Source of the DNA: Thermoplasmata archaeon
GTDB taxonomy: Archaea > Thermoplasmatota > Thermoplasmata > Halarchaeoplasmatales > Halarchaeoplasmataceae
Length of the DNA: 64,000 nt
NCBI GenBank assembly: GCA_003552585.1
Contig: PUNK01000032.1
Span: forward strand, 1 to 64,000
Reading direction: 5' to 3'
Made by a program: the position numbers and the translations under genes. Of this stretch, positions 210-3,805 are shown piece by piece. The notes beneath the pieces were generated by a model that did no database searches, was not told the origin of the DNA, and saw only the letters and a program-made list of their open reading frames with translations. Within the stretch, counting starts at the first letter, position 1. Each line of letters opens with the position of its first letter.

Positions 210-241
210 AACCCCCTTCTTTCTTTTTCTTATTTTTTTAT
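207..241 (+). terminator. T-rich 3' end signal, duplicated at 11408-11442
   Basis: Directly after the stop codon comes a C5 run and then a long pyrimidine tract with several T runs, typical of archaeal termination at oligo-T. The stretch is identical, inverted, to the sequence downstream of the carboxypeptidase gene. The two genes thus share coding end and 3' flank. Termination activity is inferred from base composition only. Confidence 0.5.
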
Positions 242-324
242 CAATTTTACTTCAACGATAATATATATAGCGCCAGTAATTAATAATCTTAACACCCGTA
301 TATCTTAGATGTATTCTTATGAAG

Positions 325-690
325 GACTATTATCACACAATAATCAGGTCAGGTTGTAACAACCTCCCAAATGACAGAGCCGTGGGACTCCCCTCCCGAC
401 AGGATGATATTATCCAGCCCCTTTGGCCATCTAAGTTTTACGACCGACGGGCGAAGGTAAGTGCCACTCTACCGTTACTCATATTGGGCGAACCAATTCA
501 GAGTATCTCTTTTTACGTTGGCAGATGGTCAGTGCTTACTTTTGTTAGAGCGGACACCTACCGCCAGTTCGAACCAAGTCGTCGAGAAACCATCCCGACA
601 AACAGATATATACTATTGGCAGGATATATACCTTACTATCGGTATTCACCACTACAATAGAACCGTGGGGTTCTCTACCTCTGAACAGTA
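325..690 (+). ncRNA. Candidate structured RNA of unknown class (GC-rich hairpin array)
   Basis: This intergenic stretch is about 51% GC between 361 and 600, while the flank at 241-300 is about 28%. It holds a series of compact perfect or near-perfect hairpins: 351-365 (6 bp stem, loop TAA), 402-415, 456-473, 483-497 (ATTGG/CCAAT), 500-510 (AGAG/CTCT), 550-564 (GCGG/CCGC) and 659-674 (AGAACC/GGTTCT). A TATA-like element lies at 298-306, about 26 nt before the GC rise, and another near 260-270. Two short overlapping open frames (319-660, 461-700) show no recognisable domain. I could not match it to RNase P RNA, SRP RNA, tRNA or rRNA. The strand is a guess from the TATA element; hairpins read almost equally well on the other strand. 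Confidence 0.4.
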
Positions 691-702
691 TAGAACATAG
701 GA

Positions 703-717
703 TTAAAATACTATATT
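703..717 (+). promoter_or_regulatory. TATA-like promoter of the HAD phosphatase gene
   Basis: An A/T-rich element (TTAAAATACTATATT) lies 32-46 nt upstream of the ATG at 749. A GAAGGTTGAT ribosome binding site at 734-743 precedes that start. Together they support a separate transcript for the phosphatase gene and place a transcript boundary between it and the hairpin region upstream. Confidence 0.4.
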
Positions 718-748
718 GACTTCAGATATCACTTGAAGGTTGATTTAG

Positions 749-1366
749 ATGCTCGTAATATTCGATCTCGATGGTACATTATTCCGTACCGACAAGGTGG
801 TAATACCTGCAGTTAATGATGCTCTCTCCGAAGTAGGCCTAAAGGCAGTAGATGATGAAATCATCATTTCTCTGCTAGGTGAGAAAACAGGAGAATTCTG
901 TAGAAAGTTGGCGATCAGTGCAAACGATGATCAGTTAAATCATTTCATAAAAAGGTTAGGTCATTATGAAGCAAAATACATAGGTCTATACGGCAAACTA
1001 TACGAAGGTGTAGATGAGATACTAGATAAACTATGTAGAAAGGGACATTTACTCTCTTTATGCAGCAATGGAAGTACAGAGTATGTAGACTTCGTATTGG
1101 ATAGCATGCATATAAAAGATTATTTTAAAAAAGTTTCATCAGGTAAAGAACACTGGAGTAAAGGAAGGATGATCAAAGAGATATTGAAAGAGTTCGATGC
1201 AAATGAAGCAGTGATGGTAGGTGACACTCAACATGATGTTATCGGTGCAAAAGATAACAGAATACCTTGTATCGGAGTAGAATATGGTTATGGAGATGTA
1301 GATGGAGCTGAATATACAATAAAAACTCCCGCTGAGATCATATCATGTCTAGATATATTTATATGA
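749..1366 (+). CDS. HAD-superfamily hydrolase, phosphoglycolate-phosphatase-like
   Basis: This 205-residue protein has the HAD signature in order. Motif I is FDLDGTLF at residues 5-12, with the nucleophile D6 and acid D8. A helical cap of about residues 15-85 follows. Motif II is SNGS near residue 108, a conserved lysine lies in the SGKEHWSKG region near 132, and motif IV is VGDTQHDVIGAK near 157. Length and cap type (C1, helical) match Gph/PpaX-like phosphatases acting on small phosphorylated metabolites in the cytosol. The start has a clear ribosome binding site at 734-743. The actual substrate cannot be read from sequence, and its neighbours do not point to a pathway. Confidence 0.85.
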   Translation: MLVIFDLDGTLFRTDKVVIPAVNDALSEVGLKAVDDEIIISLLGEKTGEFCRKLAISANDDQLNHFIKRLGHYEAKYIGLYGKLYEGVDEILDKLCRKGHLLSLCSNGSTEYVDFVLDSMHIKDYFKKVSSGKEHWSKGRMIKEILKEFDANEAVMVGDTQHDVIGAKDNRIPCIGVEYGYGDVDGAEYTIKTPAEIISCLDIFI

Positions 1367-1597: not shown

Positions 1598-1762
1598 ATC
1601 GTTTAGAAAAAGTGTTAAACAATATATTTATTTTAGAAATATAAAATAATTTTTTAAGGTTACGATAATGCGCAAGATGTTATATACTGAAAGATGGTTA
1701 TTAATATCATGTTGAAGGTTTATTACTGGCAAGTAGTAAACCATATTCAGAGGTGAAAGAAC

Positions 1763-3805
1763 TTGTCTAAGAACAACACATATTTGACAAAGAATGTCTC
1801 TCTCAACCAGATTTTTGTAATTATCGTTATCCTGATTATAATGACTGCTCTAAGCTCTTCTATTTCATATGGCCATTTTCATACAGCAGAGATTGAAGAG
1901 ATCAATTTCACTATTTTACATACAAATGATGAACATTCTTCGATTATCCCTCATTCCCCTGCTGTTGACCATGACCCGGGAAACCCTGATGACCCTACTT
2001 TAGGGGGTTTTGCTCGTCTTTCTACTGCTATAAACGAAGTTCGTGATCAAAAGGAGCAGGATGGAGAACAGGTACTCCTTTTCAACTCAGGTGATTTTTT
2101 AGGAGGGTCTCCATTTGGATGGCTTGCTCCCCAAGAAGGGGTTGCAGCAGAACTACATCTTATGCAGGAGATGGGTTACGATGCAGTAACAGTCGGTAAT
2201 CACGAATACGATTACGGAGCCGATGTATTAGCTGAATATCTAATAGATGCTGGTTATCCCGAAGAACACGATAAAACTACTGTACTGGCATCTAATACTA
2301 AACCGTCAGAAGACCATTTACTCGCTGAAAAAAACCTATTTCGTGATACAGCTATTTTCCAATTAGAAGAAAGATTGACCATAGGTGTTTTCAGTCTGAT
2401 CGGTGAAGATGCGGTGAGTGTAGCACCGAATACTGAAAATGTAACTTTTCAAGATCAGCATGAAATTTCTCGAGAAATGGTTGAGAGATTGAAAGACCAG
2501 GGGGCAGACATAATAGTTGCTCTAACACATTCGGGAGTGAAAGAGGATAATGAATTAGCTCGTGATGTTGATGGTATCGATATTATCGTAGGAGGTCACT
2601 GCCATACCGCTCTCTATGAACCTGAAAAGGTAGGCGGTACAATAATAGTTCAAGCAGGTTCACTGGTAAAATATCTCGGAAACTTAGAATTAGTTTATGA
2701 GGTTGAAACCGGAGAAGTTAGAATACGTAACGATGATAAAAACTCGGAATTTTTGATACCGATCGATAACCGTTTTTACCCTGACGAACATATTTCAGCA
2801 CTTGTTGAGGGCTATAAAGGGGAACTAGACAACTTAGTGAAAGAGATGACCTACGGCAGATTCGATGATATCTTAGGAACAGTCGCCACTTCAGATTTCC
2901 CTATCAAAAATCATCCCCCATCTGAAGAGACACCTATAGGTAATTTTATCACCGATGGTATGCGCTTAGTCACTGGTGAAGTGACTGGGGAAAGAGTAGA
3001 CATAGCCCTTCAGGCCAACGGGAATATTCGTGAGAGTATAGTGCCCGGGAGTATGCCTCACTGTGAAGGTAACGTATCTTTCTACGATATAGCCGAAGTG
3101 ATAGGTTTGGGTTATGGAGAAGATGGTTATGCAGGTTATCCCATAGTTTCTTTTTATCTAACCGGAGATGAGATCCGACGAGCTTTAGAGACAGCGGTTT
3201 TATTGGAAGAATTCATGAGTGATACTTACTTTTTACAATTTTCAGGAATAAGATATGAATATAATCCTAACAACGCAGTGCTTTTTACAATCCCTTTTAT
3301 GGAATTACCTATCCCGATTGGTAGAGCTGTAACTAGTGCGCAGCTTTACACAGGTGATGGGGTACAACCCACGGAAAGTGAAGAATATATCGAAATAGAA
3401 TGGGGTGACGATGAATTGTATCATATCGTCACAGATTCTAATGTTCTTTCATTCTTACCTATGGTAGGGGATTTGGTATCACGCCTTGAGGTAGAACCTA
3501 AGAATGCAGATGGAGAGCCGATTGCAGTCGAGAATTTTGACGAATTCGTAGTTCACCGAGATGATGGAACGGAATTGAAAGTATGGCAGACTGTTATAGA
3601 ACACGCAGCCTCACAACCAGAACAAAACGGGACACCTCATGTACCTGAATATTATACAGAAACCTCCGATCGAATAAATCAAGTCTGGTCTTTTCCGTAT
3701 GTCTGGCTAGTCTACATAATTCTGATAATAACATCTGGAGTGATTGTGATCATAGTCTATAGGAGAAGAGAAAATAAGAAAGAAGAGTTACCTGAGGAAG
3801 ATTGA
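1763..3805 (+). CDS. Membrane-anchored 5'-nucleotidase / 2',3'-cyclic phosphodiesterase family protein (UshA-like)
   Basis: The 680-residue product starts at TTG 1763 behind an AGAGGTGA ribosome binding site at 1748-1755. An N-terminal hydrophobic helix (about 15-36) is a signal or anchor. The metallophosphoesterase domain follows with ILHTNDEHSS, a GDFLGGS metal ligand, GNHEYDYG and GGHCHT motifs. The second half carries the 5'-nucleotidase C-terminal domain with a substrate-loop ANGNIRES motif. A C-terminal transmembrane helix (about 647-668) with a basic RRRENKK tail anchors it, leaving the catalytic domains outside. It probably hydrolyses extracellular nucleotides or sugar nucleotides for scavenging. 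A TATA-like TTATATACT lies at 1679-1688. The family covers UDP-sugar hydrolases and cyclic phosphodiesterases, so the exact substrate is open. Confidence 0.88.
   Translation: MSKNNTYLTKNVSLNQIFVIIVILIIMTALSSSISYGHFHTAEIEEINFTILHTNDEHSSIIPHSPAVDHDPGNPDDPTLGGFARLSTAINEVRDQKEQDGEQVLLFNSGDFLGGSPFGWLAPQEGVAAELHLMQEMGYDAVTVGNHEYDYGADVLAEYLIDAGYPEEHDKTTVLASNTKPSEDHLLAEKNLFRDTAIFQLEERLTIGVFSLIGEDAVSVAPNTENVTFQDQHEISREMVERLKDQGADIIVALTHSGVKEDNELARDVDGIDIIVGGHCHTALYEPEKVGGTIIVQAGSLVKYLGNLELVYEVETGEVRIRNDDKNSEFLIPIDNRFYPDEHISALVEGYKGELDNLVKEMTYGRFDDILGTVATSDFPIKNHPPSEETPIGNFITDGMRLVTGEVTGERVDIALQANGNIRESIVPGSMPHCEGNVSFYDIAEVIGLGYGEDGYAGYPIVSFYLTGDEIRRALETAVLLEEFMSDTYFLQFSGIRYEYNPNNAVLFTIPFMELPIPIGRAVTSAQLYTGDGVQPTESEEYIEIEWGDDELYHIVTDSNVLSFLPMVGDLVSRLEVEPKNADGEPIAVENFDEFVVHRDDGTELKVWQTVIEHAASQPEQNGTPHVPEYYTETSDRINQVWSFPYVWLVYIILIITSGVIVIIVYRRRENKKEELPEED

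Follow-up and report, generated by a model that had tools for sequence, protein, structure and literature searches.

A PATE derived from a TnpB-type IS200/IS605 element at a hairpin-rich intergenic island of a Thermoplasmata archaeon

The island and the case for an RNA or protein gene

The window analysed here is the 64-kb stretch (64,000 nucleotides) at the start of contig PUNK01000032.1, and near its beginning an intergenic island at 325-690 lies between a reading frame ending at 209 and an HAD-family hydrolase gene at 749-1366. The GC content of the island is 46%, with 100-bp windows peaking at 53% (351-450), against 27-29% in its flanks and a mean of 43% for the whole window. Within the window the island ranks only at the 80th percentile, and it is conspicuous because the intergenic flanks are AT-rich. 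The preliminary description had set an island of about 51% GC in a flank of about 28%; the flank value holds, but the island value is too high and is exceeded only in single 100-bp windows.

Compact hairpins are mildly over-represented in the island. Perfect stems of at least 5 bp with loops of 3-5 nt give four counts at three sites, compared with 1.0 in dinucleotide shuffles (p ~0.016), and an equal count is reached by 4% of the same-size segments of the window. The three hairpins that had been singled out at 351-365, 483-497 and 659-674 all exist in the sequence. As features of the island they fare differently, since the last two lie inside the element described below, whereas the first crosses its boundary at 356.

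These hairpins and a GC content above that of the flanks are what speaks for a host gene on the plus strand that encodes an independent structured RNA. An Rfam scan of the island gave no match at the gathering score and none at E values up to 10, so a common Rfam RNA family was dropped as a candidate, and the statement that the island resembles no standard archaeal RNA was borne out; ARAGORN found no tRNA in it. Folding of the whole island was no better than that of shuffled sequences on either strand (z -0.16 for the plus strand, -1.05 for the minus strand). Covariation among homologues had been proposed as a check, and RNAalifold on the full-element alignment revealed no compensatory pairs, with both sides changed in 0 of 37 predicted pairs; in an alignment of the right end, two rows of which are poorly alignable, both sides had changed in 3 of 17. 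The copies described below sit at unrelated places in either orientation, the named hairpin at 351-365 spans an insertion junction, and the dispersed copies and empty sites contradict a resident gene. An RNA gene of this kind is thus highly improbable, and an independent structured RNA at 325-690 is not supported.

A protein-coding gene is more improbable still. Open frames of 113 aa (319-660) and 79 aa (461-700) are present on the plus strand, but neither has a match in Pfam, other copies carry indels here, and the 113-aa frame starts outside the element and crosses its boundary.

Dispersed copies, fixed ends and a host target

A search of the host genome with window positions 230-750 matched eleven further places, which comprise one full-length copy (83% identity), copies cut by contig ends (C26, C22 and C8), a fragment of the right end, and short stretches that match nothing but the ends. 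At least four of these are further copies of the element, all with unrelated flanks. Repeats break assemblies, and contig ends are the expected place for repeat copies. Contigs C8 and C22 (at position 1) and C26 (at position 8) end inside copies, and the host copy number is therefore a lower bound.

Four genomes of the same family also carry copies, which are near full length in G001 and G006, cut by contig ends in G005 and degenerate in G004. Copies in other genera include L014 (84% identity) and L016 (80%), together with contig-edge parts in G005. No copy was found outside the family in 84 genomes of the same class, and the plasmid collection gave no match to the element; in IMG/VR there was neither a close TnpB relative nor an exact match to the pattern. 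In the aligned copies, similarity begins and stops at the same two points and the flanks are unrelated. The copy in the window is 82-89% identical to the others, which are 88-100% identical to one another; it consists of the same pieces as its sister copies with more decay, and its right terminus reads GTTAC. As the most diverged copy, it is probably an old, inert insertion.

The pentamer TCTAT directly precedes the left end at 23 of 25 sites (the exceptions are ACTAT and TGTAT), and thus represents the fixed short target that characterises IS200/IS605 insertion. One full-length relative of the element, L030 in G001, interrupts a radical-SAM gene that is uninterrupted in relatives. At the insertion point the gene of the congener G006 reads CTCTAT and then diverges from the interrupted sequence, which indicates that TCTAT belongs to the host; this argument uses the radical-SAM flank alone. 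A second locus, between glnA and a rubredoxin gene, holds a mid-size copy in G001, whereas the site has no insertion in G013, G006 or G000, the last being the window's own genome. Neither the flanks of aligned copies nor the comparison of the occupied and the empty site showed a target duplication. An orthologous empty site for the window copy, sought through the downstream HAD gene, was not found, and upstream gene order is not conserved. The mapping of target and ends therefore places the window element at 356-689 and its target at 690-694 (Table 1). The hairpin at 351-365 crosses the insertion boundary between 355 and 356; it is therefore fortuitous and has no meaning as a feature of the element.

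Table 1. Parts of the element in the window and of its junctions with host DNA.
Feature	Position	Strand	Evidence
PATE, 334 bp, internally deleted TnpB-derived element	356..689	-	Copies at dispersed sites share their ends but not their flanks; ends common to the full TnpB element
Host target / transposon-adjacent motif TCTAT (ATAGA on the plus strand), directly 5' of the left end	690..694	-	23/25 left ends; uninterrupted radical-SAM gene
Left end (LE), at 90% identity with that of intact TnpB element L030	640..689	-	blastn E 3e-12
LE subterminal hairpin AGAACC-CCAC-GGTTCT, named in the preliminary description	659..674	-	Conserved in LE copies
tnpB 3' coding remnant (nucleotides of the DMSNGxVA codons)	461..484	-	91.7% over 24 bp to tnpB of L007/L030
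Internal hairpin, CAGGAT..ATCCTG type	398..419	-	Kept in mid-size PATE copies; the window copy has an imperfect version
Right end (RE) with hairpin AGTC-CCAC-GGCT, terminating in GGAGGTTGTTAC (consensus GGAGGATGTCAC)	356..393	-	81.6% identity with the L030 RE across 38 bp (E 4e-6); copies end here
Hairpin spanning the RE/host junction (355/356), named in the preliminary description	351..365	.	Boundary from aligned copies with unrelated flanks

A PATE and its TnpB parent

We conclude that 356-689 is very probably a palindrome-associated transposable element (PATE), a non-autonomous derivative of an IS200/IS605 element of the IS1341 type (tnpB only). Deletion has taken most of tnpB but has left both ends, each with its hairpin, and a short remnant of the 3' part of the gene. 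This identification rests on the dispersed copies with fixed ends and unrelated flanks, insertion 3' of TCTAT, the empty sites of relatives, and the homology of both ends to a TnpB element. As in other PATEs, the element is too short for a transposase (334 bp, with ORFs that have no Pfam match), it carries near-terminal palindromes (the left- and right-end hairpins match the ends of L030), its boundaries are fixed among dispersed copies and against empty sites, and terminal inverted repeats are absent, the ends reading TCTAT/ACTGTTC... and ...GTCAC/. An autonomous IS1341-type element was rejected, since TnpB coding sequence is reduced to the short 3' remnant. The preliminary description had weighed a new structured RNA against a remnant of an inserted element. 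The latter proved correct, with an internally deleted and dispersed IS200/IS605 TnpB element that has defined ends, a target site and empty sites; the former fails on folding at shuffle level, on the 0 of 37 compensatory pairs across the full-element alignment, and on a natural sense that is the opposite strand, transposon sense being the minus strand of the window.

The local parent type is represented by L030 (PWKY01000058.1) and by L007 on host contig C27, which are elements of 1.4-1.5 kb with the ends of the PATE and a tnpB sense corresponding to the minus strand of the window. L030, in G001, is 1,481 bp long and encodes an intact 443-aa TnpB with Pfam OrfB_IS605 and TNB domains; two relatives that carry the parental TnpB are the "Thermoplasmata archaeon" MAGs CSSed10_214 and B1Sed10_34. 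Like this IS1341-group parent, the PATE has both ends, subterminal hairpins with CCAC loops, the target TCTAT and the same orientation, but it lacks nearly all of tnpB. Over 48 bp the left ends of PATEs are 90-94% identical to that of L030 (around 92%, with the window copy at 90%), and over ~150 bp the right ends of the sister copies L002 and L014 are 71-72% identical (E down to 5e-19). For L002 (72%, E 5e-19) the alignment spans the last tnpB codons (DMSNGxVA) to the terminal GGAGGATGTCAC. In the central stretch of the window copy, at about 510-640, one 21-bp piece is weakly tnpB-like (E 0.03).

Two further observations concern these larger elements. The flanks of L030, around 1641-3126, match two different relatives' genes, for a ~1,085-aa protein and for the radical-SAM protein, which suggests that copies have recombined or that the MAG assembly was joined at the repeat. 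The tnpB of L007 (L007:1607-2884, contig C27), the only close tnpB of the host, is 95% identical to the intact G001 copy and has an in-frame TAA in its zinc-ribbon motif (SKTC*SCG), being otherwise open.

The shared ends occur on elements of three sizes, ~1.4-1.5 kb, 334-335 bp and ~51 bp. In the ~51-bp, terminal-only form, found in the host for example on C76, C3, C40, C29, C23 and C60, the left end is joined straight to the right end through a shared CCCCACGG hairpin. A parallel core-deletion series is known from Haloquadratum walsbyi, in which the elements run from ~1,500 bp to ~52 bp, a 1,500-bp tnpB element having been reduced to a 52-bp PATE (PMC3119063). The Haloquadratum PATEs (such as HqIRS71, HqIRS46 and the terminal-only ISHwa23 form) likewise lack a transposase gene, terminal inverted repeats and target duplication, and share with the window PATE the near-terminal palindromes common to IS605-type elements; HqIRS71 also keeps a C-terminal tnpB segment, as the window PATE does (PMC3119063). 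The family described here differs in host lineage (Thermoplasmata MAGs), in end sequences and in target (TCTAT). A PATE-like element of Halanaerobium hydrogeniformans keeps its left end, the last 58 nt of tnpB and its right end (PMC7290912), and the window PATE has the same arrangement of left-end hairpin, last part of tnpB and right end. The Halanaerobium element is single-copy and bacterial, whereas the window PATE belongs to a multi-copy family that spans several genera.

Mobilisation and a possible guide RNA

The Y1 transposases of IS200/IS605 elements act on single-stranded DNA, where they recognise the subterminal hairpins, and they place the element 3' of a target. By analogy, we infer that the PATE is mobilised by a Y1 TnpA acting in trans, its mobility being read from the distribution of copies. 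TnpA would recognise both subterminal hairpins of the PATE as single-stranded DNA and excise the element as a circle, which would then be inserted 3' of TCTAT with no target duplication. Read from the sequence, GTAGA at the foot of the left-end hairpin, just 5' of it, can pair with TCTAT with one T-G wobble and may serve as the left guide. Y1 TnpA is present in 11-12 of 16 genomes of the family. In the host, the assembly of which is 91% complete, the only Y1 TnpA detected (C10) is carried by an element whose right end, ...TAGTTCAC, is not that of the PATE, and because the ends differ this element was rejected as the mobiliser. The C10 locus (L084:627-2395) is an IS605-type element in its own right, in which Y1 tnpA and tnpB are both intact and the ends are unrelated (right end ...GGTGTAGTTCAC). 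One TnpA locus of G012 has a similar right end, TTTGGGAGGATGTCAC.

The omega RNA (reRNA) of IS200/IS605 elements comes from the tnpB 3' end and the right end. The right end of the PATE occupies the same position, and the element might therefore still make a TnpB guide RNA that acts in trans: an RNA running from inside the element through the right end into the flank would direct a TnpB from another locus to cleave the vacated donor site, and in this way the element would be kept. What mid-size PATEs keep is this very segment of tnpB 3' end and right end; the internal hairpin is retained among copies, including the diverged L006 and L017, most copies share a conserved TATATATC stretch lying upstream when read in the sense direction, and G001 encodes an intact TnpB with matching ends. 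Compared with a TnpB omega RNA, however, the PATE right end is a candidate with weak structural support. The full-element alignment has no compensatory pairs, PATE right ends fold at z -0.2 (window copy) and -1.1 to -2.0 (sister copies), short of the -2.85 of the intact element, and the structure predicted next to the right end is unlike that of L030. The only close TnpB of the host is the one interrupted by the TAA codon, and the TATA-like stretch may be an old piece of tnpB coding sequence. Moreover, the ~51-bp forms are also dispersed and have no such segment, which is therefore not needed for spread. We regard trans-acting guide production as unlikely, and it is not needed to explain the data. 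Less likely again is the stronger version in which the mid-size PATE is under selection as a free-standing guide-RNA cassette that keeps the right-end/omega segment, has acquired or kept a promoter, and recruits TnpB in trans for its retention. If this were true, the PATE would be a 'guide-only' parasite of TnpB transposons.

The island at 325-690 is thus not a new RNA class; it is a new example of a familiar kind of mobile element, ordinary in itself yet well resolved here. A mobile element explains the island, which can be struck from the candidates for a new archaeal RNA. The analysis adds a well-bounded PATE family from a non-haloarchaeal lineage, with three size classes (1.4-1.5 kb, 334 bp and ~51 bp) and a clear target motif. 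The putative guide-RNA sequence at the right end of copies that have no gene makes the question of a trans-acting omega RNA testable in related strains.
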